Shown here: positions 33,206 to 55,163 of the stretch, one piece after another
Position numbering within the stretch: position 1 is the stretch's first letter
Layout: every line of letters starts with the position of its first letter
Source: Mycolicibacterium porcinum
GTDB lineage: Bacteria > Actinomycetota > Actinomycetes > Mycobacteriales > Mycobacteriaceae
NCBI GenBank assembly: GCA_002086835.1
Contig: MVIG01000009.1
Coordinates: 186,001-250,000 of the forward strand
Reading direction: 5' to 3'
Length of the DNA stretch: 64,000 nt
Made by a program: the position numbers and the translations under genes
The notes under the pieces: model-generated
Database searches by the model: none
What the model was told of the DNA's origin: nothing
Seen by the model: the letters and a program-made list of their open reading frames with translations, nothing else

Positions 33206-33257
33206 TTGACACAGTGATCTGGGCAACATTAGCATACGTTGACCGACGCGTCGGACG
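33206..33257. promoter_or_regulatory. Promoter of the yrbE-mce operon with island operator A
   Basis: On the plus strand TTGACA (33206-33211), an 18-base spacer and TAGCAT (33230-33235) form a good promoter whose start would fall in the palindrome at 33240-33257 (TGACCG-ACGCGT-CGGACG). On the minus strand the palindrome is followed after three bases by TATGCT (33236-33231), a -10 for the CAP-like gene. One operator may control both directions. Confidence 0.65.
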
Positions 33258-33337
33258 GTGATTGATGGACGTGGCAGCCTCCGTCGGGAACGTGTCGCGA
33301 CATACCGCCTAGAAGGCTTCGAAGGAGGCGAGACAAG

Positions 33338-33460
33338 GTGAATATCGCTGTACGCGAAGCACTTTCGAAGTACCGCCGCGTCAGCTGCGCACCGCTATCT
33401 GCTGCCGCTGACGGCGCAATGTATTGCATCCGCTCAATGCGGCAGGGAGGGCAAGCGTGA
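33338..33460 (+). CDS. Possible 40-residue leader ORF coupled to yrbEA
   Basis: GTG 33338 lies nine bases after GGAGG. The frame encodes MNIAVREALSKYRR and a Cys-containing tail and ends with a TGA that overlaps the yrbEA GTG (GTGA). Position, ribosome site and overlap argue for translation. The peptide has no membrane segment and no recognised family. It may only serve to couple ribosomes to yrbEA. Confidence 0.4.
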   Translation: MNIAVREALSKYRRVSCAPLSAAADGAMYCIRSMRQGGQA

Positions 33461-34374
33461 CTACTCGCACGCCGGCCCCTGTCGCGGAGTCAATGACTTC
33501 CTCTGGACCGGCGGAGGTCGAGCAGGGGAATCGTCGGCCAACGGGGTCCGCGGCGCTAATCGGTTGGTGCCGCGCGGCTTTCGCCTCCATCGTTGCAATA
33601 CCAGCAACGAGCGCACGAACAATGGGCCGCGCCGTGCTCCTGACCGCGTCGGTGATCAGGTATTCCGTTGCGGACGCCTTGTCGTTGCGTTTGCCGATGA
33701 GTGAGCTTCTCGTCGAATCCTGGTCGCTGTACAAAGTCACGGCCCTGCCTGCGATCTTGATGGCGATCCCCTTCGGTGGAATGGTCGCCGTTCAATCGTC
33801 GGGCCTCATCAACCAGGTGGGGGCGAACTCCCTTGTTGGGGCCGCGAGCGGCGTGGGGGTGGTCCGCCAGGGCGCGCCGATTACCGCGGGCCTGCTGATG
33901 GGCGGTGCTGCGGCGGCTGCAATCGCCTCGGATCTCGGCGCACGTGCGATACGTGAGGAACTCGACGCTCTTCGGGTCCTCGGAATTGATCCCGTCAGGC
34001 GTCTCGTCGTGCCGAGGTTTCTGGCCTTGATTCTGCTTGCGCCGATCCTGTGCTCGATCATCATCGCGTCCGCGGTGATCGCCTCCTTCCTCCTCGCCAT
34101 CATTGTCAGTCAGGTGACGAGCGGAAGCTTCTGGGCTTCCTTCGGTGCCTTCGCGAAGATGGTGGATGTCTGGTTCGCCATGGGCAAGGCAACGGTATTC
34201 GCCGCCATTGTCGGAATTGTGTCTTCGCTGAGAGGGATGGAGGCCAAGGGTGGCCCGCGTGGCGTCGCCGATGCCGTAAACGCAGCAGTCGTGCTGAATG
34301 TCGTCGGGATCGTCATCGCGAACCTGGTCATCACGCAACTCCAAACCATGTTCTTCCCAACGCAGGTCGCCTAG
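33457..34374 (+). CDS. yrbEA: YrbEA, MlaE-type permease of the Mce transporter
   Basis: 305 residues with five or six membrane segments, the first of two permease subunits of an Mce lipid importer. The MlaE-family features are AIPFGGMVAVQSSGLINQVG, the coupling region SDLGARAIREELDALRVLGI and PVRRLVVPRFLAL. GTG 33457 follows GGGAGGG and overlaps the leader ORF stop. Its stop overlaps the yrbEB start (TAGTG). The energising ATPase (MceG/Mkl) is not in the window, as is usual in mycobacteria. Confidence 0.93.
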   Translation: MTTRTPAPVAESMTSSGPAEVEQGNRRPTGSAALIGWCRAAFASIVAIPATSARTMGRAVLLTASVIRYSVADALSLRLPMSELLVESWSLYKVTALPAILMAIPFGGMVAVQSSGLINQVGANSLVGAASGVGVVRQGAPITAGLLMGGAAAAAIASDLGARAIREELDALRVLGIDPVRRLVVPRFLALILLAPILCSIIIASAVIASFLLAIIVSQVTSGSFWASFGAFAKMVDVWFAMGKATVFAAIVGIVSSLRGMEAKGGPRGVADAVNAAVVLNVVGIVIANLVITQLQTMFFPTQVA

Positions 34375-35243
34375 TGGGACTTCATGCAACGGGCCAGGCT
34401 GCGCCCGCACGCTATTTCGGGAGGCTATCCAAAGTCTTCGACCCCTTCCTGAACGCCTTCGAAGGTCTAGGGCAAGCTGTCGTGTTTGTTGCGCAGGTGT
34501 TCTACCTGCTTCCGGTGACGCTGCGTCACTACCGCCGGGAGACTCTGTCGAGGATGAACAGTCTCGCGTGGGGCCGGGGCTCGATTCTGGTCGACGGCGG
34601 CGTCATCAGCGTGTTGGTGATCCTCGGCATAGCCATCGGTGCCTCCATCGCCATTGAAGCCTTCGCAATTTTGAACCTTTTGGGGTTTGGGGCGCTGTCG
34701 GGGATCGTCGGCGGCTTGGCGAATGTGCGAGAGATGTCGCCGCTGATAGCCGGGATTGCCTTTGCCGCACAGGCGGGGTGTCGTATGACGGCCGAGCTTG
34801 GATCGATGCGTATTGCAGAGGAGATCGATGCCGTCGAGGCCATGGGATTGCGGGCGATACCGTTCGTGGTAGGTACGCGCTTGATTGGCGGATTGACCAT
34901 CGTCATACCCGGATTTCTGCTCACCCTCCTGGTCAGTTTTTTTGTTTCGAACACCATGATCAAAGTTTTTTACGGTCAACCTGGGGGGACCTATGACCAT
35001 TACTTTGTTCAATTCCTTTCGCCCACAGATCTGCTCTATTCCGCAATCAAGGCAACCGTATTCTGCGCGACCGTGACGATCGTGCACTGCTACTACGGAT
35101 ACTTTGCGTCGGGTGGGCCGGTCGGTGTCGGGCTGGCGTCCGGACGCGCGGTGCGGGCGAGTCTGGTGGCGATGATGGTGCTCGACTTCATCCTGACGGT
35201 CGCCCTGTGGGGGCTTAAGCCGACGTTTGTCTTCAAGGGGTAG
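34374..35243 (+). CDS. yrbEB: YrbEB, second MlaE-type permease
   Basis: 289 residues with five or six membrane segments. The MlaE coupling motif is TAELGSMRIAEEIDAVEAMGL, followed by IPFVVGTRLIGGL. The GTG at 34374 shares a base with the yrbEA stop. The coding sequence contains AT-rich stretches (around 34920-35050) uncommon in the first 30 kb. It forms the permease heterodimer with YrbEA and delivers substrate from the Mce complex into the cell. Confidence 0.93.
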   Translation: MGLHATGQAAPARYFGRLSKVFDPFLNAFEGLGQAVVFVAQVFYLLPVTLRHYRRETLSRMNSLAWGRGSILVDGGVISVLVILGIAIGASIAIEAFAILNLLGFGALSGIVGGLANVREMSPLIAGIAFAAQAGCRMTAELGSMRIAEEIDAVEAMGLRAIPFVVGTRLIGGLTIVIPGFLLTLLVSFFVSNTMIKVFYGQPGGTYDHYFVQFLSPTDLLYSAIKATVFCATVTIVHCYYGYFASGGPVGVGLASGRAVRASLVAMMVLDFILTVALWGLKPTFVFKG

Positions 35244-35251
35244 GGGGCCAG

Positions 35252-36391
35252 ATGACGGCATTGCTCAGGATGTCCGAACAGCGGCAGACACGCATTCTTC
35301 GGCGGGTGGGTGCCACTATTGTCGCGCTGGTTGCGGTCATCGCAATCGTTTACATCACGGTCGACCCTTTTGGGGACGAACCGGAGTCTGTGACGTCAAT
35401 AGCAATTGACACACCGTATGTCGGGCAGGGTGTCGCAGGAGGAACCCCTGTCATCATGCACGGCGTCAAGGTCGGGCACGTTGATCGGGTCGACAGCATG
35501 CCGGCGGGAGGGGTCCGCCTCTTTGTCGATTTGCAGCCCAAACCGACCGCTCGACTGACTGACTCGGTCAATATCGACTTCCGTCCTGCCAACTACTTCG
35601 GGGTAACCGGTATCAATCTGATTCCCACCGAAGGGGGCGAGGCGCTTCGGAGTGGGGCGCATATCAGCGTCAGGCCCAAAGGTAATTTCGCCCTTCAGGC
35701 ATTGTTGTACCGGCTCGGTGAATTGTCAGACCATGTGGTGACACCACAGTTGATCGACGTCATCGAGCGCGCTACTCGGTACACCGACGCGATGACACCA
35801 TTGTTGGAAACGATGATCATGGTCTCGACCTCGGTGACCAATGTGCAATCAGTGAGCACCGAGCAACTCTTAAGAAACACCACCGGCATCAACGTGGCGT
35901 TCCCTTCCTTCCTCGATGCCATGATCAGCACCGGCGACTTGTATCTGCATGCCGATATCGGCATTGGCTTCGACCCCGACAGAGATCTGAAGAACAACGA
36001 ATTTGTTCCGGCGTACAACGAGCAACAAATGAGCTATTACAATGCGGCGCGCGAGCAACTTCACAAGAATCCGGACGCTTTTGTCAAAGGACGATTCAAG
36101 GAATGGTTGAAGGGCGCGGAGACGGACCTTTTCAGCGCAGTCGGCCGGCTGTTGTCGACTCACACAAACGACCTGTTCCCAGTCGTGGATGAAATTCGCG
36201 TGATGGCCGATGTTGTTCCCGCCCTGATCCCGGCAGGCGACATCGAGTACACCCTGCGAGAACTACGGACCCGGCTCGAGCGGATGTATCAAGGCTCCAG
36301 CGAACAGCGGGCATTGCAGGTGCGCCTCATTCTGGACCAGCTGCCAGGAGTAGCGGCACCCATGGGGCTAGCTCTAGGAGCCGCCGAGTGA
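35252..36391 (+). CDS. mceA: Mce family protein, MceA position
   Basis: 379 residues: an N-terminal membrane anchor (about 20-38, VGATIVALVAVIAIVYITVD), an MCE/MlaD domain near 45-130 (GTPVIMHGVKVGHVDRVDS, FGVTGINLIPTEGG), then a long helical part that in Mce complexes forms the periplasmic lipid tunnel. First substrate-binding subunit of the hexamer. AGGGGG before ATG 35252. Confidence 0.9.
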   Translation: MTALLRMSEQRQTRILRRVGATIVALVAVIAIVYITVDPFGDEPESVTSIAIDTPYVGQGVAGGTPVIMHGVKVGHVDRVDSMPAGGVRLFVDLQPKPTARLTDSVNIDFRPANYFGVTGINLIPTEGGEALRSGAHISVRPKGNFALQALLYRLGELSDHVVTPQLIDVIERATRYTDAMTPLLETMIMVSTSVTNVQSVSTEQLLRNTTGINVAFPSFLDAMISTGDLYLHADIGIGFDPDRDLKNNEFVPAYNEQQMSYYNAAREQLHKNPDAFVKGRFKEWLKGAETDLFSAVGRLLSTHTNDLFPVVDEIRVMADVVPALIPAGDIEYTLRELRTRLERMYQGSSEQRALQVRLILDQLPGVAAPMGLALGAAE

Positions 36392-37407
36392 GACGAATGA
36401 GACACAACAAACCGCTGGGCGCGCTATTGCGTATGGCGCTCGCCGCGGCGGTAAGCACCGTGCTCGTGGTACTGATCGCGAACGTGATCACCCAACCCGT
36501 CGATGTTCAGACGCGGACCTATCACGCTGACTTCACCGACATCTCCGGACTCCATGAAGGCGCCGACGTACGTGTTCGCGGGGTACGCGTTGGCAAAGTC
36601 GGCGCCCTCGGACTGAAACGGACCGACGGAAGGACACTCGCGGAGGTGACATTCACCATGGACGCTGCCTACAGCGTCGTACCTGCCACGCGACTGGCGA
36701 TCAAGTTTCAAGCGCTCACGGGACTGCGCTATATGGATGTGTCGGGCGCTGTCGAGGGCGCCGCACCCGCAGATCCGATAACGAACGTGCCCACCAACAT
36801 GACGCTGCCGTCGTTCGATATCACGGTGCTGTTCAACGGATTACAGCCGGTCTTGGCGACTCTCGACCCAGCCCAGATCAACACTTTCACCGACAATGTC
36901 GCCACCTTCCTCGCTGGTGACGGTGGTGGCCTGGGGCCGGTGCTCGCGAGCATCCGCAAGCTCACGGCCCTGGTTTCGGACCGCGAACAAGTCATCTCGA
37001 CGCTGGTCAACAATCTCGCGACCCTGGCCAAAGGCGTGGACGGGCGGTCACAGTATCTGGTCCAGATCCTCGACCTGGTAAAGGTGCCTATCGATTCAGG
37101 CATGACGGTCTTGGACGAATTCAGGAAATCGCAAATGTACGGTCCAGATTTCGTCTCGGAGGTGATGCGCCTGCTCAAGGCCGCCGGCCTAGAACCTGAC
37201 ATCGACATCGAGACAGCTCTCGACAAAGCCTTTACCAATCTCTACGACAACATCGACGCTGTGAAACGTGTTCCGGTGATCTGGGAGAACATCCAGCCGC
37301 CGCCGCTGGAGAAGGGCCCAGCGCCATGTGCAAAGGGCCGTGCGGAGCTGCCCCTTCCGATGGATGTACTTCTGAACGGCCGCAAGGTGGTGCTATGCAA
37401 TCAGTGA
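36388..37407 (+). CDS. mceB: Mce family protein, MceB position
   Basis: 339 residues. Membrane anchor near 10-30 (LRMALAAAVSTVLVVLIANV), MCE domain with DISGLHEGADVRVRGVRVGK, then helical region and a C-terminal segment with two Cys (PAPCAKG and VVLCNQ). GTG 36388 overlaps the mceA stop (GTGA). The 3' end overlaps mceC by 13 bases. Confidence 0.9.
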   Translation: MRRMRHNKPLGALLRMALAAAVSTVLVVLIANVITQPVDVQTRTYHADFTDISGLHEGADVRVRGVRVGKVGALGLKRTDGRTLAEVTFTMDAAYSVVPATRLAIKFQALTGLRYMDVSGAVEGAAPADPITNVPTNMTLPSFDITVLFNGLQPVLATLDPAQINTFTDNVATFLAGDGGGLGPVLASIRKLTALVSDREQVISTLVNNLATLAKGVDGRSQYLVQILDLVKVPIDSGMTVLDEFRKSQMYGPDFVSEVMRLLKAAGLEPDIDIETALDKAFTNLYDNIDAVKRVPVIWENIQPPPLEKGPAPCAKGRAELPLPMDVLLNGRKVVLCNQ

Positions 37408-38402
37408 CACGCCAGCTGAAAAGCCCCATGTTCTGGGGAATAGCGACGATTGCTTTCGTTACCGTCATCAGCCTCGTGGTGGCATGGGTGTACGTGAATC
37501 CGCCCAAACAGCAGACCATCACCTTCTACACCGACGATGCCGTATCGATCACTCCCGGCGACACCGTTCGCGTCGCTGGGGTGATCGTCGGCAAGGTGAA
37601 GGATCTTGCCATTGAACCAGACAGCGTGCGGGTCCGGGCAACCCTGGACAGCACGGCTTTTGTGGGCGATCAATCCCAGATCCAGGTTCGCATGTTGACC
37701 GTGGTCGGCGGCTATTACGTCACCGTGATCCCGCTGGGTGACTTGCCGCTGGGATCCAAGGCGATCCCGAAAGAACGTGTCACCATGCCGTACAGCTTGA
37801 TTCGCAGCATCACGGACGCGACCAAGATCACCGACAACGTGAATACGGCGCCGTTGAATGAATCCCTCAACCGTGTCCAGCAAGGCTTGACAGGTACCAA
37901 CACCGACGCGTTGAGCGAACTCATCAAGGCCGGGAACGCCATGACCGAGAACTTGGAGCGGCAGCGCGGGCAGATAACCGAGATCTTGGGTATGTCCAAC
38001 GAGTTCATCGGGCGACTCAACGACAACCGCGAGTTGCTCGACTACCTGCTCAGGCGGGTGGCGATCCTCGAACAGTCCCTGGTCCTGTACGGCAAGGGAT
38101 TTGCCACTGCGATCGACGGATTAGGTGAAGTCGGCAGGCGTCTGGACCCACTCGCTCGCTTCTACATGCCGCATCGCCAAGACTTCCTCGACCGTGTTCG
38201 CGGTGCACTCGGAGAGTTCCAAGCGATCGCCGACCGCAACGGCGTATTGGTGCGGGTACTGCGTCGAATCCGGGGACGCATGGAGCGGACGCTGGAAGCT
38301 CAGAACAACTACGCCACGTCTCCCACCTTTGGCGGAACACCAGGTGCACCAGAACTCTTCGCCACCGACCTGTGCATTCCAGTGGAGGGAAGCCGCTGTT
38401 GA
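37395..38402 (+). CDS. mceC: Mce family protein, MceC position
   Basis: 335 residues. Anchor near 13-35 (MFWGIATIAFVTVISLVVAW), MCE domain with VSITPGDTVRVAGVIVGKVK, helical domain with RRVAILEQSLVLYGKGFATA and a Cys-containing C terminus (LCIPVEGSRC). ATG 37395 has AAGGTGG five bases upstream inside mceB. It lacks the long Pro-rich tail that some MceC proteins have. Confidence 0.9.
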   Translation: MQSVTRQLKSPMFWGIATIAFVTVISLVVAWVYVNPPKQQTITFYTDDAVSITPGDTVRVAGVIVGKVKDLAIEPDSVRVRATLDSTAFVGDQSQIQVRMLTVVGGYYVTVIPLGDLPLGSKAIPKERVTMPYSLIRSITDATKITDNVNTAPLNESLNRVQQGLTGTNTDALSELIKAGNAMTENLERQRGQITEILGMSNEFIGRLNDNRELLDYLLRRVAILEQSLVLYGKGFATAIDGLGEVGRRLDPLARFYMPHRQDFLDRVRGALGEFQAIADRNGVLVRVLRRIRGRMERTLEAQNNYATSPTFGGTPGAPELFATDLCIPVEGSRC

Positions 38403-39532
38403 TCATGTGGATTCGACACATCCGGCACCGTTCGGCGTGCACCGTCACCCTGGCGCTGATTCTCGGTCTGAGCGCAACCTCATGCGGCGCATCCGGCGAG
38501 AAACAAACGGCCGAGTATTGCGCGATCCTGTCCGATGCAGTGGGGTTGTACCTCGGCAACCCGGTGACTCAGATGGGTTACAAGCTGGGCAAAGTCAAGT
38601 CGATTGAGTCTCGCGACACCGAAGTCGAAGTGCGGTTCACGCTCGACGAAGATCGGTCCTTGCCGGCGGATGTCAGAGCTGTCGTACGATCTCCTTCGAT
38701 TCTGGCTGACCGCTCGCTAGAACTCGTAGGCAACTACGTCGGCGGGCCTAAGCTGCCGGAAGAGCAGTGCATCCCGCGCAATCGCACCGCTACGCCGATG
38801 AGCATTTCCCAGGTCATCGGGTCGGCCACTGACTTCGTGAATGCGATCACCCCGGAGGAGTCGACCAACCTTCAAGACGCGCTCGCAGGTATCGACGAGG
38901 CAGTGTCCGGCAACGGGGAAGGGGCCAATGAGCTCCTGACCAGATCGTCTGCACTGTTGGACAATCCCGATCGGACGATCGCCGAACTGGGTACGATCAC
39001 CCGGAACATGGCCGAGCTGACCACCATGCTGCGCGACAACAGGCAGTCGCTGAAATCAGTGGTTCAGGCCATGCCGGTGACCGGAGCAGACGTCACCAAG
39101 GCGGCAGCCGGAGCGGCGAAGCTGGCCCACCCACTTCCGGAGGTGCTACAGCTGGTCAGCGATCTTGAACTCGAGCTCGGACCAGAAATCCAGCTGGCGT
39201 TGGACACGACATCCGACACCCTCCGTGTGCTGAGTCCCCATTACAAAGGTCTGGCCAACATCCTGAATCCCTTGCCACGCTTCATCAGTGGACTGAACAA
39301 CGAACCTGCCGATGCGATCGCCGGTGGTCTCGCCAAGCGCATCAACAACCATGTGTTCGCGCTGCTGCCCTATCGTCCACCGCTGTTCCGAATCCCGACT
39401 CCAAATGGCCTGTTCGCCTGTGGTGTGGTCAACGACGCGATGCCCGGCAGCTGTGCGGATGTCGGCGGCAGGCCGTACATGGTGGACGTGGCCCTCTTGC
39501 AATACGTCCTGGCAGAGGCGGCGAGACGATGA
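38399..39532 (+). CDS. mceD: Mce family protein, MceD position, with possible lipobox
   Basis: 377 residues from TTG 38399, whose codon overlaps the mceC stop (TTGA) and has GGAGG ten bases upstream. ATG 38405 is the alternative. The signal region TVTLALILGLSATSCGASG ends in a Cys that could be lipidated, though A at -3 is not ideal. The MCE domain follows with LGNPVTQMGYKLGKVKSIES and long helices. The C terminus is LQYVLAEAARR. Confidence 0.88.
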   Translation: MIMWIRHIRHRSACTVTLALILGLSATSCGASGEKQTAEYCAILSDAVGLYLGNPVTQMGYKLGKVKSIESRDTEVEVRFTLDEDRSLPADVRAVVRSPSILADRSLELVGNYVGGPKLPEEQCIPRNRTATPMSISQVIGSATDFVNAITPEESTNLQDALAGIDEAVSGNGEGANELLTRSSALLDNPDRTIAELGTITRNMAELTTMLRDNRQSLKSVVQAMPVTGADVTKAAAGAAKLAHPLPEVLQLVSDLELELGPEIQLALDTTSDTLRVLSPHYKGLANILNPLPRFISGLNNEPADAIAGGLAKRINNHVFALLPYRPPLFRIPTPNGLFACGVVNDAMPGSCADVGGRPYMVDVALLQYVLAEAARR

Positions 39533-40524
39533 GGCGACGCATCTACGCGGCGATCTGCGCTCTGGTCTGCGCCGTGCCTGCAACAGCTTGTTCAGGGCTC
39601 AAGATTGATTCAATTCCTCAGCCGGGCACCAGTTATCAGGACGGCTACGACCTGGTCGCAGAGTTCACGAATGTGCTCAACCTGCCGGATAGGGCGAAGG
39701 TGGTGATGGACGGGACCACCGTGGGAGTGGTGACGGACATGCGGCTGGCGGGAGACCAGGTGGATGTCACCGCACGCATCGACCGTGGCGTCGTTGTTCC
39801 GTCGAACATCCATGTGGTGCTACAACAGGCAACCGTCCTCGGAGACATCTATGTGGCTCTGGAGCGGCCTGCCGACGCGAAAGGCCCAGCTGACGCGCTG
39901 GTTGCCGGTGCCCGGATCCCGGTTGCGCAGACCACGTCTCCTCCGCAATTGGAAGACACCATCGCCCATTTGGCCAACTTCATCGGAAGTGGCTCGATCC
40001 AGCGGGCGCAGAACTCACTCATTCGCATCAACAGCGTGACACCGGCGACCGACGAAGTGCGTCGCGTGGTCTCGCAGGTTACGACGGATCTCGACGACCT
40101 CTCGGAGAACATCGACACTGTCGACGAACTGATCAAGGGAGTGCATCAGACCTCGAACGTCCTCGCGTCCCGCACGTCCGCTCTGAGCGTTTTGTTCTCT
40201 GAGCAAGGGGTTGCGGGAATGGACCGAGATATGATCATGGCGAATACTTTTGGTCGGCTACTCCCGTCGCTGGGCACGATCTACAACGGTGGATACTGGC
40301 TGGTCCCGCTCATCAAGTCGTTGGCGAACGCGTTTGAGTCGGTACAGGGGACGAAGCAAGCATTGGAGGCTGAGTACCCGCTCTATCGCCGGTTCTTGAC
40401 CGACTACTTCATGCAGCAAGACAAGTACCCGGCTGTCAACATCACATCAATTGTGGGACCCGACGGACGTGAGTTGTCTGGAAATGTAGAGCAGGTCCTT
40501 CGTATGCTAGGGGCAGTTCCATGA
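39529..40524 (+). CDS. mceE: Mce family lipoprotein, MceE position
   Basis: 331 residues. RRRIYAAICALVCAVPATACSG is a lipoprotein signal with Cys at about residue 21, as in LprK-type MceE proteins. The MCE domain carries LPDRAKVVMDGTTVGVVTDM. The lipid anchor would sit on the outer leaflet of the plasma membrane. The ATG lies inside the mceD end (ATGA overlap) and the stop overlaps mceF. Confidence 0.9.
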   Translation: MRRRIYAAICALVCAVPATACSGLKIDSIPQPGTSYQDGYDLVAEFTNVLNLPDRAKVVMDGTTVGVVTDMRLAGDQVDVTARIDRGVVVPSNIHVVLQQATVLGDIYVALERPADAKGPADALVAGARIPVAQTTSPPQLEDTIAHLANFIGSGSIQRAQNSLIRINSVTPATDEVRRVVSQVTTDLDDLSENIDTVDELIKGVHQTSNVLASRTSALSVLFSEQGVAGMDRDMIMANTFGRLLPSLGTIYNGGYWLVPLIKSLANAFESVQGTKQALEAEYPLYRRFLTDYFMQQDKYPAVNITSIVGPDGRELSGNVEQVLRMLGAVP

Positions 40525-41669
40525 ATTGGCGGGCACTGATTTCGTTCGTCGCGTTTTTCGCGATGATCGCCGGCTTTCTCACCTACGTCGGTTCGTTGGG
40601 GATCAGAGTCAATCCACCCGAGAACCGCATCGCACTCTCGATGGATGTGCCCGACATCAACAGCTTGGAACTCGACTCGAATGTGCTGCTGCGAGGAATC
40701 CCCATCGGGAAGGTGACGCAGATCGAGGCGGACACCTCGCATGCGACCATCCACTTCTATGTCGACAACAGGCACAAAATCCCGGTCGACAGCGTCGTTC
40801 GCTTGGAGAACCTTTCGGCCCTCGGCGAGTCGTATCTGGAGGTGGAGCCGCAAAGCACGGGCGGCCCGACATACACTGATGGTCAGCGCATCGCGACGGA
40901 AACGATCAGGCAGCCGGCGTCCATCTCCGAGCTCGGTACCAGCGTCGTCAGGGTGCTGAATCAGATGAATCCTGCGCAGCTGAGCAATGTGCTCAACGAA
41001 GCCGACAAGGCCTTACCTGATCCATATGCCGTGCTGCCCAATCTTGAGCGAGCAAGTCTGTTGCTACGCAACACCACACAAGACTTGAACGGTCGAGGGA
41101 TGGCAGTGCTCGACAATTCGCAAAGTCTCTTGGAAAACGCCGGCTTCGTCGGGCCCGCCTTGGCGAATGCCGCGCCGCCTCTGCGTGACCTGGGGCCCGC
41201 GATCCAAACCTTGTGGAACAACGGCACCGCCATTGGACTGCGCACCGATACCCCCGGCAACGTATGGATTTTCGGCCGGTTTCTGCAGCGGATTCAGAAG
41301 CTGCTCGACGACCGTGGTTCCGACATCCGGGTGCTGACTGAGCCGCTGACGGCGAATATCAATGCCATCGCGGCGTCACTGACCACCATCAACACGAGCG
41401 AGGTGCTGGCAAACCTTCTGCGAGTGGTGCCGGCAGATGGTGTCATCAATCTCCATGTAACGAATGACGGCGGTGCGATCGTCCCAGCGCCGGCCGGCCC
41501 GCCCCCAACCGGTGGCGAGCCGCCGAATGTCGGCTTGCCGCCAGCCGGTGCGCCGATCGGGCAGCCTGCTCCACCGCCGCCCCCTTTCAGCGGCCAGGTT
41601 CCATCGGGGGATCTGCCGACATCGGATGAACAAACCCCGACGACTCAGGAAGGCAACGGTGGAAACTGA
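40521..41669 (+). CDS. mceF: Mce family protein, MceF position
   Basis: 382 residues. Anchor near 5-26 (ALISFVAFFAMIAGFLTYVG), MCE domain with LELDSNVLLRGIPIGKVTQI, helical domain, then a Pro/Gly-rich C-terminal tail from about residue 320 (APAGPPPTGGEPPNVGLPP), typical of MceF. Starts at the ATGA overlap with mceE and ends with a one-base overlap with the next gene. Confidence 0.9.
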   Translation: MNWRALISFVAFFAMIAGFLTYVGSLGIRVNPPENRIALSMDVPDINSLELDSNVLLRGIPIGKVTQIEADTSHATIHFYVDNRHKIPVDSVVRLENLSALGESYLEVEPQSTGGPTYTDGQRIATETIRQPASISELGTSVVRVLNQMNPAQLSNVLNEADKALPDPYAVLPNLERASLLLRNTTQDLNGRGMAVLDNSQSLLENAGFVGPALANAAPPLRDLGPAIQTLWNNGTAIGLRTDTPGNVWIFGRFLQRIQKLLDDRGSDIRVLTEPLTANINAIAASLTTINTSEVLANLLRVVPADGVINLHVTNDGGAIVPAPAGPPPTGGEPPNVGLPPAGAPIGQPAPPPPPFSGQVPSGDLPTSDEQTPTTQEGNGGN

Positions 41670-43250: not shown

Positions 43251-43273
43251 TCTTCTTCTTCCTGTACTACGGA

Positions 43274-43944: not shown

Positions 43945-43962
43945 CGACCGACGCGTCGGACG
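43945..43962. promoter_or_regulatory. Island operator B
   Basis: CGACCG-ACGCGT-CGGACG. Its 18-base core at 43946-43963 is identical to 33241-33258. On the minus strand TATCAT (43941-43936) lies three bases beyond it, giving a start about 17 bases before ATG 43912. Confidence 0.7.
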
Positions 43963-44105: not shown

Positions 44106-44123
44106 CGACCGACGCGACGGTCG
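44106..44123. promoter_or_regulatory. Island operator C upstream of the first P450
   Basis: CGACCG-ACGCGA-CGGTCG. A TAGAAT -10 (44099-44104) lies one base upstream, so the operator covers the expected transcription start. The remaining leader to ATG 44306 is about 190 bases and holds no convincing gene. Confidence 0.7.
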
Positions 44124-44305
44124 AGTTCTGAGGCTGAAGCTAACCGAAATGTAGGTGCAGGCGGTGGCTACATCTCGAAGGCGGGCGCAGATTGGCGGAG
44201 TCGAGTCAACCTCGTACCGCTCGCGAGTCGACCGCGCTGAGCCGTGGCGTGTCCCACGGCGCAGGAGCCGCGGAGTATGGAAACGATGAGAAGGATGGAC
44301 CGATT

Positions 44306-45718: not shown

Positions 45719-45728
45719 CCAGGAGGAC

Positions 45729-46529: not shown

Positions 46530-46541
46530 CTAGGAGAAGCA

Positions 46542-46766
46542 GTGTCTGATTTGCGATCCATCGATGCACCCGGAAACCACGTCACTGTGGACAGGTCCAA
46601 GTGCATCGGAAGTGGCAACTGCGTGATGTGGGCAGCCGCGACATTCGATCTTGATGACGACGAGTTGGTGATTTTGCAGCCCGACTCGGACGACTCTCCG
46701 GAGTCCATCGTCGAAGCTGCGCAGAACTGTCCGGTAGGCGCCATCACCGCCGAGGCGCGTGACTAG
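46542..46766 (+). CDS. 3Fe-4S ferredoxin, P450 partner
   Basis: 74 residues. Cluster ligands: CIGSGNC (residues 21-27) and CPVGAI near residue 62, the C-X5-C...CP pattern of mycobacterial P450 ferredoxins, with Ser in the variable position. It delivers electrons to the P450 two genes upstream. GTG 46542 follows TAGGAGAAGC. Confidence 0.9.
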   Translation: MSDLRSIDAPGNHVTVDRSKCIGSGNCVMWAAATFDLDDDELVILQPDSDDSPESIVEAAQNCPVGAITAEARD

Positions 46767-46913: not shown

Positions 46914-47303
46914 CTAGCGCCACGCTCGATAGAATTCGGGTTCCGGATACTCCCAGTACTCGACGAGCTTGCCGCCGTCAATCCGGTACACCTGGGCGAG
47001 AACGTAACTGAATGTCTCACCATCACGTTCGAGCCGATGGCGCACTATGGCAACACCGAGACGGTCGTTGGCGACGATGTCGATCAGTTCGTCCCGGTAG
47101 GTGCCGCCACTGATCTCCATGAACTTCTGGTACATGCGCAGGCCCTCGTCGGCGCCGCGCCAGTCACCGCTGATCTGGGTCTCCCCTGGCTCGTGCCACA
47201 CGATTTCAGGATCCACCAATTCCTTGTAGACGGTGTCGTCGCCGGCGATAAAGGAATCGTAGAGTCGGCGTAAAGCCACTTCGTTGGCGTGAGGCGATGT
47301 CAA
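46914..47303 (-). CDS. SnoaL-like (NTF2-fold) protein
   Basis: 129 residues, a cone-shaped alpha+beta fold used by isomerases, cyclases and hydratases on polycyclic or steroid-like molecules. NEVALRRLYDSFIAGDDTVY, EIVWHEPGETQISGDWRG and YWEYPEPEFYRAWR are typical. TTG 47303 has AAGGA eight bases upstream, and the in-frame upstream extension lacks a ribosome site. Last gene of the minus operon 48978-46914. Substrate unknown. Confidence 0.8.
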   Translation of the reverse strand: MTSPHANEVALRRLYDSFIAGDDTVYKELVDPEIVWHEPGETQISGDWRGADEGLRMYQKFMEISGGTYRDELIDIVANDRLGVAIVRHRLERDGETFSYVLAQVYRIDGGKLVEYWEYPEPEFYRAWR

Positions 47304-47357
47304 TTCAGAAATCCTTCCCTCGGGATTTGGATGCAGGCATTGATACAAGTGGTGGTG

Positions 47358-47903
47358 CTACCGCGATGTGAGAGGTGAGTCCAGCAGATAGGTTTCCTCG
47401 TTGTGGGACACCGCGCCGCCGGCGTCGATGCGCCGGAAGTTCATGGTTTGAAACATCGTTCCTGTTGCCCCGGCGAACTCGCCTGCACCACCGATGATGA
47501 CGCCGCGGCCCTGCGGGCCCGGGCCGCTGGTCGCGACGAATGGGGCTTCACCCTCCCACGGTTCGCCAGTTTCATGCACAGTGGAAAACAGTTCCACCAG
47601 TTTGGGATTCGCGTAGTCCTTCACCTGGTAGGAAGCGAGGACGCCGCGCGCTGGCAGTGTGATTGTGAAAGCGACATGCAACTTGTCGCCTTCGGTCCAT
47701 TCCAGTTCGCTGCCGATGCCGATCTCGCGGCCCTCGGCATCGCGGATCTTGGTCAGCACGACGACCTGATTGCTCAACGGGGTGTCAGCGAGGTTCTCGA
47801 TTCCCGCGGGGAAAATCGGTTGAGCCACAGAGCCGTCGTGGGTGATGGCAATGACGTCGTGGGGAGTGCTCCAGTAGAAACGCTCGACGATGGGTTCGCT
47901 CAT
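47358..47903 (-). CDS. Uncharacterised protein, possibly allene-oxide-cyclase-like barrel
   Basis: 181 residues, no signal peptide. The protein is predicted mostly beta. The segment RGVIIGGAGEFAGATGTMFQ resembles the GxFxGAxG strand pair of allene oxide cyclase/dirigent barrels, which guide cyclisation or coupling of reactive intermediates. The similarity is a pattern match only. It lies between the kinase-like and SnoaL-like genes with tight spacing, so it is part of the island operon under operator D. Confidence 0.55.
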   Translation of the reverse strand: MSEPIVERFYWSTPHDVIAITHDGSVAQPIFPAGIENLADTPLSNQVVVLTKIRDAEGREIGIGSELEWTEGDKLHVAFTITLPARGVLASYQVKDYANPKLVELFSTVHETGEPWEGEAPFVATSGPGPQGRGVIIGGAGEFAGATGTMFQTMNFRRIDAGGAVSHNEETYLLDSPLTSR

Positions 47904-47934
47904 GCGCGGTGGTTCCTTTCAGTCGGGAGAGATA

Positions 47935-48978
47935 TCAGTTAGTCAGCAGATCAAGTGACCGATGGTCGGCGACGGCAGCCCCGCACCGCTGGCCGGCGGC
48001 CACACAAACTTCTTCGGGTTGGAACATCGGCGTGGTAAGACACCACAGCAGGCCGAAGTATGCGGCTCGCCGATATTCGAGCCACGCGTCGTCAAAATCA
48101 ATGACAGGGCCGCCCGCGGCCGCCAGATACTGCAGATAACGAGCGAGCAGTGCGCGTTCGTGGTTGCGTCGGTCTTCGATCGCCAGTGCCGTGCTGAGGA
48201 AGTAGGCCACGTCGTGGGACCAACGGCCGGCCATTGCGCCTTGCCAGTCCAGGAAGCCCGACGTGCCATCAGCGAGGAAATAGAGATTGGCTACGTGAGA
48301 ATCGCCGTGCAGCAGGCATCGGGGTGATTCCAGATCCAGCTCCACGAGTCGGTCGAAGGCGTCGCGCGCCTTCACTCTCTCGATCAGGTCACCGGTGAGG
48401 TAGTCGAACCGGGCCGTTGGCGCACAGGTGTCCCAGTTCTCTTTTGAGAAAAGAAACTCTGAGACATTCGCAGAATTGTGCACGCCCAACCATGGGTTGG
48501 CGTCAAGTATCGGAGCGCTCCAGGACGACGCGTGCAGCGAGGCGAATGAATGCAGAACTCGTTCAGCCTGCTCGATTTTCATGGTTTGCAGCGGTGATCC
48601 GAAGGTTGCGCCGGCCGCCGCGAGATCCTCGAGCAGTATCGTGCCGGTGGCGTCCGCGCCGGCGTCGGCGAAAAAGCAGCGGGGGTGGACGCCACCGACG
48701 TGCGGCAGCACCTCCGCGTAGACGCGGGCTTCATGACGGTAGTAAAAGGCGAGCATGGCGCTGTGAGCCTCATAGCCGCCTTTGAGCAGCATTTTGGCTG
48801 GCAAGGTGGTGGAATCGGCGTAGTCGAGGTCGAGGAACGCCTTGGTGGTAGTGCCGTGAATGATCTTCGACTGACGCACCTTGGCGACTTCGACGCCGAG
48901 AACCTCGCTCAGCCATGCGGCATCGATGTCATCGACTGATGGGATTGCACTCGTACTGGATTGAGCAGAGGGATTCAT
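47935..48978 (-). CDS. APH-fold phosphotransferase
   Basis: 347 residues of the aminoglycoside-phosphotransferase/choline-kinase-like fold. The ATP-Lys segment is LPAKMLLKGGY, the catalytic loop LLHGDSHVANLYF, and the metal-binding FLDWQGAMAGR. Homologues in mycobacterial lipid islands are of unknown substrate, and some relatives phosphorylate steroids or hydroxyl groups on small molecules. ATG 48978 has GGAACGG upstream. ATG 48990 is less supported. First gene after operator D. Confidence 0.85.
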   Translation of the reverse strand: MNPSAQSSTSAIPSVDDIDAAWLSEVLGVEVAKVRQSKIIHGTTTKAFLDLDYADSTTLPAKMLLKGGYEAHSAMLAFYYRHEARVYAEVLPHVGGVHPRCFFADAGADATGTILLEDLAAAGATFGSPLQTMKIEQAERVLHSFASLHASSWSAPILDANPWLGVHNSANVSEFLFSKENWDTCAPTARFDYLTGDLIERVKARDAFDRLVELDLESPRCLLHGDSHVANLYFLADGTSGFLDWQGAMAGRWSHDVAYFLSTALAIEDRRNHERALLARYLQYLAAAGGPVIDFDDAWLEYRRAAYFGLLWCLTTPMFQPEEVCVAAGQRCGAAVADHRSLDLLTN

Positions 48979-49062: not shown

Positions 49063-49080
49063 CGACCGTCCAGACGGTCG
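49063..49080. promoter_or_regulatory. Island operator D
   Basis: CGACCGTC-CA-GACGGTCG, a perfect 8-2-8 palindrome. On the minus strand TATTGT (49060-49055) begins two bases beyond it and serves the kinase-like gene. Confidence 0.75.
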
Positions 49081-49595: not shown

Positions 49596-49696
49596 GGAAC
49601 TTCTCCTAAGGTGCGTTTTCGGGTTGCGGGCCGCTGTTTGCCGTCGGCCAATCGTGCCTTGACCCACAGTCGGTGGTGTTCTACCGTCACAATATT

Positions 49697-49714
49697 CGAC
49701 CGACGAGGCGGTCG
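49697..49714. promoter_or_regulatory. Island operator E, bidirectional
   Basis: CGACCG-ACGAGG-CGGTCG between divergent genes. A -10 lies 2-3 bases beyond each end: TATTGT on the minus strand (49694-49689) and TAATTT on the plus strand (49718-49723). Confidence 0.75.
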
Positions 49715-51104: not shown

Positions 51105-51114
51105 TTCAGGGCTG

Positions 51115-51186: not shown

Positions 51187-51576
51187 TCAGCCCTCGGAAG
51201 CGGGAGTGTACTCGGTGGCGTCGGCGCGGGTTTGCTCACCGGGCTGCAAATGGTTTACCAGGGTGCGGAGGCGAGGTTCGCGCAGCGTGCCGACATAGCC
51301 CGCGAGCCATTGGCAGATCGCGGCCGTGAGTCCGGGTGATAGCGGAATGCCCAGGCACACGGCCTTATTGAGCAGTTCCTCGATCGCCGTGAAGGTGTCG
51401 TCGGCACCGATTCTGAGGTAGATCTGGTTGCGGGCGGGCTTGCTCAATCGGGGAGTTACGGCCCCCGCGAGGTCCCAGGCCACTTGCGCCTGCGTGAGCC
51501 TGGCTCGCGCTTGGGAAGCGGAGGGACCTTCGGACAGAGAGGACGTCGACGACATGGGCACGGTGCAGGTAGTCAC
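51187..51576 (-). CDS. Hypothetical protein at the end of the reductase-thiolase-SDR operon
   Basis: About 129 residues, mostly helical after a Ser-rich N terminus (SSTSSLSEGPSASQARARL), no membrane segment and no recognised domain. GTG 51576 overlaps the SDR stop (GTGA). GTG 51561 and ATG 51555 are alternatives. Being last in a tightly coupled operon argues that it is real and works with the enzymes upstream. Confidence 0.6.
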   Translation of the reverse strand: MTTCTVPMSSTSSLSEGPSASQARARLTQAQVAWDLAGAVTPRLSKPARNQIYLRIGADDTFTAIEELLNKAVCLGIPLSPGLTAAICQWLAGYVGTLREPRLRTLVNHLQPGEQTRADATEYTPASEG

Positions 51577-52307
51577 GGTCGGCGCGGATCGGAGTTGCGC
51601 CGCGCGATGACGATGTTGCCGACTGCAGCGTTGGCAGACAGGTGCGTCAGTGCTACGGCAAGCTCGGCCACGTCGGCGGTGGTGATCATTCCGGTGCGCG
51701 GTTCGTCGAGCCAGGCGGTCATGTCGGTGTCGACGAAACCGGGCGAGAGTGCGGTGGCGGTGACGCCGTGTTCGCCCTCCTCCAGTGTCACGGTGTCGCA
51801 CAGAGAGATCAACGCTGACTTGCTGGCGCCGTAGGCGGCCAACCCCGCTTCAGGATGGACACCGGCGATCGAAGCCAGGGCGACGACCTTCGCTCCCCGT
51901 TCGGGAGCTGTCGAGGCTGACTTACGAAGCAACGGAAGCAGATCCTGCAGCAGCATGTAGGCCGAACGGACGTTGAGGTTGAACGTCAAGTCGTAGTTCT
52001 TCATGGTGCTTTCGGTGATGGGCGCGTAGTGGCCCAGTCCGGCGTTGAGGATCAGCACGTCCAAGCGATCGAAGGTATCGAGATGTTCAGTGGCTACCCG
52101 CCGCACGCCGGCTTCGTCGGAGAGATCGGCGGCGATTTCGCGCACCTGGACGCCGAATTCGGCACGGATCTGATCGGCGAACGACGACAGCCCGGGAGCG
52201 CGGCGCGCGACAAGGGCCAGATCGTATCCTTCTCCGGCGAGCCGTCGGGCGATTTCGGCGCCGATGCCGCGAGATGCTCCCGTGATGAGTGCGCAGCGTT
52301 CGCTCAT
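51573..52307 (-). CDS. Short-chain dehydrogenase/reductase
   Basis: 244 residues. Cofactor motif TGASRGIGAE with LVARR (NADPH-type basic residues), LILNAGLG, catalytic Ser in ALASIAG and YGASK. ATG 52307 lies one base after the thiolase-like stop. It probably oxidises or reduces a hydroxy/keto intermediate of the island pathway. Confidence 0.9.
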   Translation of the reverse strand: MSERCALITGASRGIGAEIARRLAGEGYDLALVARRAPGLSSFADQIRAEFGVQVREIAADLSDEAGVRRVATEHLDTFDRLDVLILNAGLGHYAPITESTMKNYDLTFNLNVRSAYMLLQDLLPLLRKSASTAPERGAKVVALASIAGVHPEAGLAAYGASKSALISLCDTVTLEEGEHGVTATALSPGFVDTDMTAWLDEPRTGMITTADVAELAVALTHLSANAAVGNIVIARRNSDPRRP

Positions 52308-52308
52308 G

Positions 52309-53817
52309 TCAATCGATCTCGATTCCGTTGTCCTGTAACTGTATTGATCGGCCGATGTATTCTTCGGCCTCAAGGGCCTGCAGCAAATCGGCACTGGCGG
52401 TATTGCCCCAGCATCGTCGTTCGTCGGGGGTGATGCCGATGAGCACCGCGGCCGCGGGCGTCCCGTCGTCGTCGCGGTGGGCGACGGTATAGGACTCCAA
52501 TCGCGCGGGTCCGCGGTAGCCGGGTGCCGGCACCCGCTTGGGGCTCGCATCGACTTCGTCTTGCACACTGGTCCAACGGAATCCATCTCGCGGCGGCCGC
52601 GTCGAATACAGGGCCAGCGCGTGTTTGGTGAGGAACATTCCGTTGGCTGTCGACAAGCCGATCGTCCCCGGATCATGCCGCAACGAGTCAACCAGCGACG
52701 CCACTGCGTGGGTGACGTAATTGTTGCCCGGCCCCCCGCCGAAGGTGAGGCCGCCGGTCACAGTGAGTGCCATGGCGGCGTCGTCCAGTGGCAGTCCCAA
52801 TTCGCCTGCGGCAATCTGGACGGCCGAAGGGAAGCACGAATACAGGTCGGCGTAACGGATATCGCTCGGATGCACGCCAGCCAGCGCGAATGCCACCTGG
52901 CCATTCGCGGCGATGGCCACCGAGCGGTGCAGGTCTTGGCGTTCGCTGACAAACCAGTGTTCGTTGCCTTCGGCGGCGGCGAGCGGGAATACCCACTGGT
53001 CAGTCGAGATGCCAAGTGCCCGTGCTGTACCCGCGGAGGTCACGATGATTGATGCGGACATGTCGACGAAGATGTTGGAGGTGAGCAGCTTCGTGTAGGG
53101 GTAGCGCACCATCCGGTTGGACGTCGAAGGCGTGATGATCTGCTCGGGTGCCGGTGCCACGCGGGTCCATGCGTGCTCATTGCCCTCGGCGACAACGGCG
53201 AACCGGTGCCACAGTTGTCCGAGATGATTCGTGTGGTCGGTGAGCGATCGCGCCGCCGCAGCGCGTATCGCGTTCTCGAAGATCGCGTAGAAGTCCAACG
53301 GAATCGAGGCACCGCTCTGGCGTTCTAACGCCAGAGACGGCTCACCGTCGAGTAATTCATTCGGATAACCGGACCGTTGGCGTGGGGTCCACGCTAACGT
53401 GGTCCCGGTGGCCTTGGCCAGGCGACGGCTTCGGAAGGCTTCGGCACCGCTGATGATCACCGCATCGTGCTCTCCGGCCGCTATCGCCCGCGCCGCCCGT
53501 GAGATCAGCACCTGGGGCTGCTCGCCTCCGATCGACGAATTGAACTTGTGTCGCGGTGCGATGCCGAGTTTCTCGGCCACGACTGCGGCTGGATCGTCGT
53601 AGGACCAGCTGGTCATCGCCACGGTCCACAAGCCCGTGACAGCATGTAGGAGGCGTCCGGCGCTTCCGGCACCGGCATCGGCCGCTGCTCGCCGTATGGT
53701 CTCGGCCATCATGGCGGCCGGTTCGGGCGAATCGGCGGGATTGGCGGGGTGCCGCGTCCATTGGCCGACGCCGACGACGACCGGGGCGTTGTCGGGTACG
53801 CGTTGCTGTTGGCTCAT
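52309..53817 (-). CDS. Thiolase-like protein without canonical nucleophilic Cys
   Basis: 502 residues of the acetyl-CoA acetyltransferase superfamily (PVVVGVGQWTRHPANPADSP start, ETIRRAAADAG). At the position of the usual catalytic Cys it has NSSIGGEQPQVLISRA, and near the C terminus GGLTFGGGPGNNYVTHAVAS, where thiolases have a second Cys. An extra C-terminal domain of about 110 residues follows. It resembles mycobacterial thiolase-like proteins (TLP1) that bind CoA or lipids without thiolytic activity. Coupled to the reductase by ATGA. Confidence 0.82.
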   Translation of the reverse strand: MSQQQRVPDNAPVVVGVGQWTRHPANPADSPEPAAMMAETIRRAAADAGAGSAGRLLHAVTGLWTVAMTSWSYDDPAAVVAEKLGIAPRHKFNSSIGGEQPQVLISRAARAIAAGEHDAVIISGAEAFRSRRLAKATGTTLAWTPRQRSGYPNELLDGEPSLALERQSGASIPLDFYAIFENAIRAAAARSLTDHTNHLGQLWHRFAVVAEGNEHAWTRVAPAPEQIITPSTSNRMVRYPYTKLLTSNIFVDMSASIIVTSAGTARALGISTDQWVFPLAAAEGNEHWFVSERQDLHRSVAIAANGQVAFALAGVHPSDIRYADLYSCFPSAVQIAAGELGLPLDDAAMALTVTGGLTFGGGPGNNYVTHAVASLVDSLRHDPGTIGLSTANGMFLTKHALALYSTRPPRDGFRWTSVQDEVDASPKRVPAPGYRGPARLESYTVAHRDDDGTPAAAVLIGITPDERRCWGNTASADLLQALEAEEYIGRSIQLQDNGIEID

Positions 53818-55061
53818 GCGAAAACTCCGGCGCGGGTTACGGCCTCATCCCAGCTGACGTTCCCTTGCTCGAGAAGTCGTCGGTAGGTCAGTAACGGCTT
53901 GACCATATTGACGCTGAGTGCGGCGCACAGCCGGCCACCTTTGCGGTACAGCGCGAGAAATTTGCGGTCGGACAATGACCCCGCGGCGACAACCACCTCG
54001 TCGTGCCCGGCGGTGGAACCGTAGATCTGAATCTTGCGGTCGAACTGGTCAGACCACACCCATGGCACCGGGGCGAATCCAGGCGCTGGCCTGGGCTCGC
54101 CGAGCAAGGTGGCAGCCGCGTGCTCGGGCTGCCGTCCGGCGTTGTCGTAGTGTTCAATTCGGCGAAATTCTCCTGTGCGGGCGTTCGGCCACTTCGCGAC
54201 GTCTCCCACAGCCACGACTCCGGGCGCGGCCTGTAGATCGGCGTCGCACACCACACCGTCATCGACGGTCAAACCTGATCCTGACAACCATTCGGTGTTG
54301 GGCAGGGCCCCAACGGCTACGACCGCGACATCACACGGCAAAAAAGATCCGTCTGAAAGCTCGAGCGCGGAGATTCCACCGTCAGCGCCGGTGGTCCAGC
54401 CGGTAACGGTGACGCCGAGGCGGACGTCGACGCCGTGGTCACGGTAGTGCTGTCCGAGGCACTCACCCACCGCTGAGCCGACTACGCGGACCAACGGCGC
54501 GGCCAGCGGCTCGATGATCGTGGCCTCAAGACCACGTTGGCGACAACTCGACGCCACTTCGGCACCGATGAATCCTCCGCCGACGATGGCGACCCGCTGT
54601 GGGCCGGCGTCCAGATCCGCGCCCAGTGCCAGGGCATCGTCCAAAGTGCGGACCACATGCACCCGATTGACGTCGCATAAGGGGAGTCGACGAGCCCTGG
54701 CGCCCGTGGCAATCACCAAGCGCTCGAACGCCATCCGTTCACCGTCGCTGAGAGTTAGCGTTCGCGAGGATAGGCACAGCGCGGTAGCGCGAGCGGACGC
54801 TCTGACTTCGGCGTCCAGGTCCGCAACATCCAACGTGATCTGGTCGGGCAGCCACTGGCCAGTGAGGATCTGCTTGGACAACGGCGGACGATCGTAGCCC
54901 GCACGCGCCTCGTCCCCGATGACCACCAACTCGCCGTCATAGCCGAGCCGACGGAGCGACTGCGCAGTTTTCAGCCCCGCCATACCTGCACCGACGACAA
55001 CCGTCGCCAAGGACCTCAGCGAGGGCGTCCCGTCTGGGCTGGGTAACACGTCAGCAGACAC
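53814..55061 (-). CDS. Ferredoxin reductase, FAD/NAD(P)H-dependent
   Basis: 415 residues. FAD motif VVVGAGMAGLKTAQSLRRLG, YDRPPLSKQIL, the NAD-binding VAIVGGGFIGAEVAS and VVAVGDVAKW are all typical of rubredoxin/ferredoxin reductases that feed P450 ferredoxins. GTG 55061 is six bases after a TATTGT -10 (55073-55068) and has no ribosome site, so it is likely leaderless and starts next to operator F. It is the only such reductase in the window and may serve both P450s. Confidence 0.9.
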   Translation of the reverse strand: MSADVLPSPDGTPSLRSLATVVVGAGMAGLKTAQSLRRLGYDGELVVIGDEARAGYDRPPLSKQILTGQWLPDQITLDVADLDAEVRASARATALCLSSRTLTLSDGERMAFERLVIATGARARRLPLCDVNRVHVVRTLDDALALGADLDAGPQRVAIVGGGFIGAEVASSCRQRGLEATIIEPLAAPLVRVVGSAVGECLGQHYRDHGVDVRLGVTVTGWTTGADGGISALELSDGSFLPCDVAVVAVGALPNTEWLSGSGLTVDDGVVCDADLQAAPGVVAVGDVAKWPNARTGEFRRIEHYDNAGRQPEHAAATLLGEPRPAPGFAPVPWVWSDQFDRKIQIYGSTAGHDEVVVAAGSLSDRKFLALYRKGGRLCAALSVNMVKPLLTYRRLLEQGNVSWDEAVTRAGVFA

Positions 55062-55075
55062 GGCGCTACAATAAC

Positions 55076-55093
55076 AGACCGTCGCGTCGGTCG
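55076..55093. promoter_or_regulatory. Island operator F
   Basis: AGACCG-TCGCGT-CGGTCG. Minus strand: TATTGT two bases beyond, for the reductase operon. Plus strand: TATGTT (55097-55102) three bases beyond, a possible promoter of the divergent operon. Confidence 0.7.
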
Positions 55094-55145
55094 GAATATG
55101 TTCGGGCGTTGACTCCGGCGACTGGCGGTGAATACGCTGAGGGAC

Positions 55146-55163
55146 CGACCGACACGTCGGTCG
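55146..55163. promoter_or_regulatory. Island operator G
   Basis: CGACCGAC-AC-GTCGGTCG, a perfect 8-2-8 palindrome between operator F and the ABM-domain gene. No good -10 lies next to it, so it may act as a second site or roadblock for the F promoter. Confidence 0.7.

Follow-up and report, generated by a model that had tools for sequence, protein, structure and literature searches.

A shared palindrome as the putative operator of a TetR-family repressor in an mce-linked catabolic island of Mycolicibacterium porcinum

Does a palindrome that recurs at gene starts mark the operators of a single regulon and, if so, which protein binds it? The question is raised by a stretch of 64,000 nucleotides from Mycolicibacterium porcinum, hereafter the window (contig MVIG01000009.1, positions 186,001 to 250,000; C92:186001-250000 of a 6.96-Mb draft genome of 102 contigs, G000), in which the 18-bp element CGACCG-N6-CGGTCG precedes an mce import operon and several putative catabolic operons. 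Coordinates past 64,000 extend the numbering of the window. The original prediction, made from the letters of the window, placed seven such sites under one repressor, probably TetR-like. We consider it highly likely that a single TetR-family repressor, encoded within the same island by a gene (79385-80068) located beyond the window end, uses the palindromes as its operators.

The seven sites first recognised (33240, 43945, 44106, 49063, 49697, 55076 and 55146) lie where they had been placed, in intergenic DNA at the 5' ends of genes, and carry 2, 1, 0, 0, 0, 1 and 0 mismatches to the bare pattern, respectively. At up to two mismatches the window contains 26 matches to this pattern, whereas shuffled versions average 16.4 and one of 100 reaches 26; the pattern barely exceeds chance there, and the signal comes from the centre and from matches that are nearly exact. 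As a genome scan the bare pattern was rejected as too loose (272 forward matches at up to one mismatch against 110 for the reversed control), and therefore the palindrome centre was added to the motif. In an alignment of 58 half-sites from 29 operators of G000 and of G019, a genome matching M. kyogaense, positions 4-6 and 8 are invariant, while 53 half-sites have A or T at position 7 and 44 have G at position 9. The centre is thus constrained, so that the consensus becomes CGACCGWCGCGWCGGTCG (nGACCGWCGCGWCGGTCn) and the six central bases are not free.

Every genome-wide copy of the exact GACCGWCGCGWCGGTC (seven of seven) falls inside the cluster, as do 10 of the 11 exact copies of GACCGWCNNGWCGGTC, an arrangement with a probability of about 3e-21 under random placement. 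The frequency check proposed in the original prediction thus gives a motif that is not random in the genome. At up to two mismatches the refined 16-mer occurs 146 times genome-wide against 74 in the control, and therefore only exact and one-mismatch matches discriminate. Between 32 and 90 kb, up to two mismatches to CGACCGWCNNGWCGGTCG yield 17 sites, 16 of them intergenic and one (74657, two mismatches) inside a gene, which was treated as chance. The core ACCGWC-NN-GWCGGT is exact at 12 of the 16 operators. All 16 score at least 19.4 with a matrix of the refined consensus, the next best score in the 157.8 kb scored being 12.0, a gap that is partly circular as the matrix was trained on these operators and 13 of G019. 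The cluster of sites with no or one mismatch is not due to chance; the palindrome is genuine and identifies a regulon.

The initial inventory was correct for its seven sites and missed nine further putative operators beyond the window end, at 65178, 65343, 68692, 71522, 74945, 77594, 79297, 80131 and 82425, the last one about 18 kb outside. By our own gene calls the stretch is 90% coding; all 16 lie between genes, and each precedes at least one first gene. Conversely, all 20 transcription units inferred between 32.6 and 86.7 kb have an operator in the intergenic DNA before their first gene, with four operators (33240, 49697, 68692 and 79297) serving divergent pairs. A weak open reading frame (61189-61479), which has no match on the fetched G019 contig, was excluded from the unit count. 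The operator at 79297 (CAACCGACAAGACGGTCT) is at the promoter of the TetR gene itself; it is the lowest-scoring operator, and its 18-mer is identical in G019. It is the density that is unusual: across 54 kb, importer included, no inferred unit of the island lacks one of the 16 operators in front of it.

Conservation in other genomes of the genus points in the same direction. In G019 the island (32.6-86.7 kb) is syntenic apart from a few genes, and 13 operators are found at the same places. A relative within the mycobacteria thus retains the motif ahead of orthologous genes, as the original prediction had required of a true regulon. The exceptions are 32641-33171, which is partly syntenic, and 46914-47279, 47935-48978 and 76669-77496, without an orthologue on the contig; the operator at 77594 is missing together with its gene. 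Across the 13 operator pairs the operator columns are 94% identical, and the 30-bp flanks 53% and 44%. The exact GACCGWCNNGWCGGTC occurs nine times in G019, eight of them on the syntenic contig, and five times in a third genome, G292, three of them in the stretch around its TetR gene. G292 (C1:1361001-1501000, L047-L053) retains the mce operon and the TetR protein (75% identity), whereas most enzymes there are different. All nine mce-operon genes are conserved, at 66-91% in G019 and 59-86% in G292. The fetched G292 stretch has intergenic sites at 73103, 79868, 96275 and 106966 (scores 24.5, 23.3, 21.9 and 17.4) and, at 106290, a degenerate counterpart of operator 33240 with three mismatches (score 14.2). 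Its catabolic gene set would thus be a module swap in which the TetR gene, the mce operon and the operators were kept.

Which regulator reads the palindrome is best answered by the TetR gene within the island (C92:265385-266068, that is 79385-80068, 15 kb past the window end). Its product matches TetR_N (E 1e-15, score 57.6, cut-off 24) and TetR_C_24 (E 7e-21), and its PDB relatives include 3vpr (second best, E 5e-19), fatty acid metabolism regulators, KstR2 and MbdR. At E <=1e-40 it is present in three of 396 genus genomes, namely G000, G019 and G292. Counts of the exact motif across these 396 genomes are seven in G000, eight in G019 and 0-2 in the others, 53 genomes having any copy. At E <=1e-30, G000 is alone in a sample of 401 genomes of the family, and in a sample of 392 genomes of the order it is joined by two relatives at 32-35% identity. 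The Rieske oxygenase of the island (E <=1e-80) is likewise found in three of 396 genus genomes, one of them only 41% identical. Given the scarcity of both proteins the island is rare, and motif, regulator and island are together absent from most of the genus.

The palindrome could instead be bound by another regulator, the in-cluster TetR protein being merely co-inherited. The original prediction named as candidate the TetR gene at 30086-30730, about 2.5 kb from the first operator, or else a gene outside the window, and TetR-like genes are numerous in genomes of this size (G000 has 198 first-look candidates). However, the 30086 gene has no homologue (E <=1e-20) in G019 or G292, both of which bear operators, and was rejected; its product has no Pfam match at E <=0.001, and it lies outside the block shared with G019. 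Moreover, the in-cluster TetR gene tracks the motif across the 396 genomes, and half of the distant relatives inspected have the same half-site nearby, including a Thermus protein very close to 3vpr. We regard binding by another regulator as improbable. The regulator is very probably the in-island TetR protein, so that of the two proposals the gene at 30086 fell and the location outside the window held.

The relatives of this TetR protein place its palindrome in an operator class. Twelve regions around plasmid-borne relatives (20-28% identity) were taken (L060-L071; H3, H9, H11, H14, H17 and H19 were outside the set), from which the unannotated L067 and L071 were excluded. Five of the 10 remaining loci, from Novosphingobium, Pseudonocardia (two), Terrarubrum and Thermus, contain in all 14 intergenic ACCGWCNNGWCGGT sites at up to one mismatch. 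Among 120 letter permutations of the half-site the true one ranked first with 14, followed by 12 for a variant able to match the same sites, three for the third, and a mean of 0.38. Scans of L058 and L059 at up to two mismatches gave three and six matches against 1.1 and 1.8 expected; they were not counted as evidence, and both loci were disregarded in the alignment of relatives. In L060, L061, L063 and L064 (plasmids of Novosphingobium, Pseudonocardia and Terrarubrum) the TetR relatives sit in acyl-coenzyme A (acyl-CoA) catabolic clusters with two to four intergenic copies of the palindrome at up to one mismatch, and these loci are candidates for further regulons.

The Thermus regulator (L066) is very close to PDB 3vpr (E 1e-111), which we take to be PfmR. 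The gene order of L066 broadly agrees with the TTHB023 operon (PMC7022988). PfmR (TTHB023) of Thermus thermophilus HB8 binds CCTACCGACCGGTCGG at 0.3 nM, and its own promoter carries CCTACCGACCGGTCGG and TTTACCGACCGGTTGG, with sites overlapping core promoters; it is taken as a repressor there, supported by in vitro transcription from earlier authors, and genes for acyl-CoA dehydrogenase, thiolase, reductase and phosphotransferase are among its candidate targets (PMC7022988). PfmR sites and the island operators have the half-site ACCGAC and the 2-bp spacing in common, but the centre is CG for PfmR and mostly GC in the island, and the PfmR regulon is scattered and small as opposed to one dense island. 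By its match to 3vpr the island protein is a homologue of PfmR; with about 22-30% protein identity and other gene content, it is not an orthologue with the same targets.

The same half-site is known from Burkholderia cenocepacia, where mutation showed that the repeat ACCGACCGGTCGGT between the -10 and -35 of paaA is needed for repression, with PaaR as the repressor (PMC2770484). A review adds confirmation by electrophoretic mobility shift assay and an inducer, 'compound II', for the TetR-type regulators (PMC9493321), a compound that we take to be phenylacetyl-CoA. The operator of T. thermophilus PaaR is different, and for this protein the title of a reference names phenylacetyl-CoA. Burkholderia PaaR (BCAL0210), compared by operator and gene content, controls paa genes, whereas none was seen among the island proteins scanned. 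The operators of Thermus FadR (TTRNACYNRGTNYAA) and Thermus PaaR (AACnAACGTTnGTT) differ from the island palindrome. Judged by half-site and spacing, the palindrome and its putative TetR regulator belong to the known PfmR/PaaR-type operator class (ACCGAC-N2-GTCGGT). In literature searches of open-licence papers, nothing among the matches listed points to this operator and regulator pair in mycobacteria, and for the four GC-centred 14-mers the only match listed is a paper on adenovirus detection.

How binding would act on transcription is suggested by two promoter layouts. In the first, a TANNNT hexamer, read on the minus strand, begins 2-3 bp past the operator (33240, 43945, 49063, 49697, 55076, 68692 and 77594), the operator filling the spacer; the first five of these -10 hexamers had been correctly noted in the original prediction (its sites A, B, D, E and F). 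TANNNT at offset +20/+21 is found in 14 of 35 oriented site rows against about 0.9 expected from flank density; the rows include G019 orthologues, with divergent sites read both ways, and are not independent. In the second layout the operator follows the end of a TTGACN-N17/18-TANNNT promoter and so covers the start region, as at 49697(+) and 68692(+) with N17 and at 71522(+) with N18. An example is the promoter-like TTGACC-N17-TACCGT at 49659..49687(+), which ends 9 bp before operator 49697; this arrangement recurs at 68692(+) and at the G019 orthologues of both. Both layouts would fit steric repression.

We therefore infer binding and repression by the island TetR protein, repression because of the operator position and because the two characterised proteins with the same half-site are repressors. 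Without inducer, a repressor dimer would occupy each of the 16 operators. Where promoters are recognisable, these operators lie in the spacer from -35 to -10 or cover the start region immediately after the -10, and RNA polymerase would be blocked at the 20 inferred units, including the mce importer and the gene of the repressor itself. The repressor would be released, and the whole island turned on, by a breakdown product of the imported compound, most likely a CoA thioester by analogy with related systems. That a single repressor governs this regulon appears nearly certain from the anatomy of the sites, their exclusivity, their footprint and their co-occurrence with the TetR gene, which supports the earlier proposal of one TetR-type repressor over the mce, P450, SnoaL-like, kinase-like, reductase-thiolase-SDR (short-chain dehydrogenase/reductase) and FadE-thiolase operons.

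The TetR protein might also be an activator or have a mixed role, as the operators stand in more than one register relative to the -10 and mycobacteria have a TetR-family activator by name (FasR; its model matches with E 8e-15 and 55 bits, cut-off 330). However, the operators overlap recognisable promoters instead of lying upstream of the -35, and the literature describes both PfmR and the PaaR of B. cenocepacia as repressors; we give this possibility little credence. The idea of a mobile or structural repeat spread through the island, suggested by many near-identical copies in one region of lower GC than its left flank, is rejected and carries almost no weight, as the copies have little more than the 18 bp and some promoter bases in common while the flanks differ between sites and orthologues, they are intergenic and precede first genes, and the same palindrome stands beside relatives of the regulator in other phyla.

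It must be taken into account that several observations weigh against repression by the in-island TetR protein through these operators. The 14-bp core ACCGWCNNGWCGGT has 28 copies genome-wide, of which 12 are in the cluster and 16 elsewhere (reversed control, eight); the 16 are either chance or a sign that the outer bases matter. In G019, one of the eight exact sites is on another contig, the other seven being in the island, and operators 43945 and 71522 are degenerate (five mismatches each) although their genes remain. G292 has no exact GC-centred site; its fourth site, 106966 (17.4), scores no better than an in-gene match at 65920 (17.1), and there is a second in-gene match at 30941 (14.8). 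No recognisable operator was found upstream of the G292 TetR gene (best, seven mismatches), and autoregulation is therefore not universal. In the first layout the -35 is weak, and some operators have no clear promoter. No sites were found in five of the 10 annotated loci of relatives (an M. avium plasmid, Roseomonas, Rhodococcus, Salipiger and Paraburkholderia). The AlphaFold model of the TetR protein was poor (mean pLDDT, the predicted local distance difference test score, of 56) and was not used.

The KstR regulon includes mce and P450 genes, and the operator motif of KstR2 is CAAGNNCTTG. KstR and KstR2 are TetR repressors, as proposed for the island protein. The KstR motif TNNAACNNGTTNNA does not occur in window coordinates 32001-87000, which bears out the earlier statement that the palindrome is not that of KstR, and CAAGNNCTTG is found once, at 49964, inside a P450 gene; the island TetR protein reaches 30.3 bits with the KstR model (cut-off 280). 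Both regulons were rejected on the motif scans and the KstR model score. The promoters of the large lipid-catabolism regulon under KstR carry a short palindrome (PMC1995591). Mce3R is also a TetR-type regulator named after an mce operon (PDB 9b7y), but its chain has 406 residues and aligned to residues 13-66 of the island protein only, and its motif is larger and not a classical palindrome (PMC4482099).

The genes behind the operators were called by our own script, and most island proteins, including three of the nine of the mce operon, were scanned against Pfam. Operator 33240..33257 (TGACCGACGCGTCGGACG; same 18-mer in G019 at 18563) lies between 32641-33171(-) and the nine-gene mce import operon 33424..42424(+), whose start is uncertain (the longest open reading frame begins at 33424; the script chose 33622). 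Pfam matches identify an MlaE permease (33622-34374) and an Mce/MlaD protein (35306-36391); the last gene (41711-42424) has no match, and the others are assigned to families by gene order. Operator 43945..43962, with the adjoining -10 TATCAT and a degenerate counterpart in G019 at 29287, is 32 bp before 43274-43912(-). This gene, probably the one earlier called CAP-like, has no Pfam match; together with a DUF732 gene it forms a unit (42894..43912, -) kept in G019 and found at separate places in G292. Operator 44106..44123 (G019 29408), with TTGACC and TAGCAT upstream, precedes a P450-SDR-ferredoxin operon (44249..46766, +), and operator 49063..49080 (G019 34560) an operon of SnoaL-like, unknown and EcKL/APH kinase-like genes (46914..48978, -). 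Operator 49697..49714 (G019 35180) is common to a SnoaL_4 gene (49113-49595, -) and a P450 gene (49803-51104, +). Operator 55076..55093 (G019 40528), with the -10 TATTGT 2 bp beyond, precedes an operon of ferredoxin-reductase-like, thiolase-like and SDR genes plus a small open reading frame (51187..54983, -), and operator 55146..55163 (G019 40597) an operon of ABM, ferredoxin, FadE, DUF35, lipid-transfer/thiolase-like, FadE and luciferase-like genes (55177..60708, +). FadE and CoA-transferase III genes (61632..64000, -) end the window, in an operon that runs on to a KshA-like Rieske oxygenase gene ending at 65139, before operator 65178.

As a whole the island encodes three P450s, ferredoxins, reductases, the KshA-like Rieske oxygenase and a molybdopterin oxidoreductase; three acyl-CoA dehydrogenases, three thiolase-like, two DUF35 and three AMP-binding (CoA ligase-like) proteins; a CoA transferase, two aldehyde dehydrogenases, two enoyl-CoA hydratases and four SDRs; and two kinase-like and three SnoaL-like proteins, besides the mce operon and the TetR gene. 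This content suggests an alicyclic, terpenoid or steroid-like compound, although the P450s, Rieske oxygenase and thiolases were matched at the family level only and therefore no substrate is claimed. Kinase-like APH/EcKL proteins are encoded in the island at 47935-48978 and L019:4795-5883, and in the fetched G292 stretch at 76018-78152 beside an acyl-CoA dehydrogenase gene. Such a kinase near an acyl-CoA dehydrogenase resembles the phosphorylation-dependent breakdown of 4-hydroxyacyl-CoA, and its occurrence hints at a pathway forming a hydroxyacid or lactone.

At the borders, the GC content drops from 63-70% (1-32 kb) to 59-65% at the start of the operon island (window 32001-64000), which would be consistent with acquisition from elsewhere. 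A ClpX-like gene with a zinc finger (31003-32277) stands at the left border, outside the block shared with G019. After the island, L020:8423-12724 (extended 87423-91724) contains TnsA-like (just under the Pfam cut-off), Mu-type transposase and TniB/TnsC-like genes, apparently a Tn7-like module, which would point away from the island if arranged in the usual Tn7 order. In G292, relatives at 43-53% stand at a distance of about 28-33 kb from the mce operon. Farther on, L021:7198-11832 (extended 101198-105832) has SAVED, ThiF and SMODS domain genes that look like a CBASS-type (cyclic-oligonucleotide-based) anti-phage system, possibly cargo of the Tn7-like element. No tRNA genes were found at the island borders in the window, L020 and L021.

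Since G000 and G019 share regulator, importer and operators with G292 while most enzymes differ, we tentatively put forward a broader possibility, which we hold with less than even confidence. A PfmR-type TetR protein and its ACCGWC operators, with the mce importer in mycobacteria, would be a portable cassette reused across phyla on different catabolic gene sets, and in G000 it would switch the whole 54-kb island, all or none, for the uptake and breakdown of a polycyclic or terpenoid-like compound that is sensed in the form of a CoA thioester. For this uncharacterised mce-linked catabolic island the outcome is a candidate regulator, an exact operator and a closed list of targets, and the substrate could then be sought by inducer screening on one reporter promoter. 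Thus, a mycobacterial regulator would be linked to the PfmR/PaaR operator class, and the class may be predictable in other phyla from sequence.

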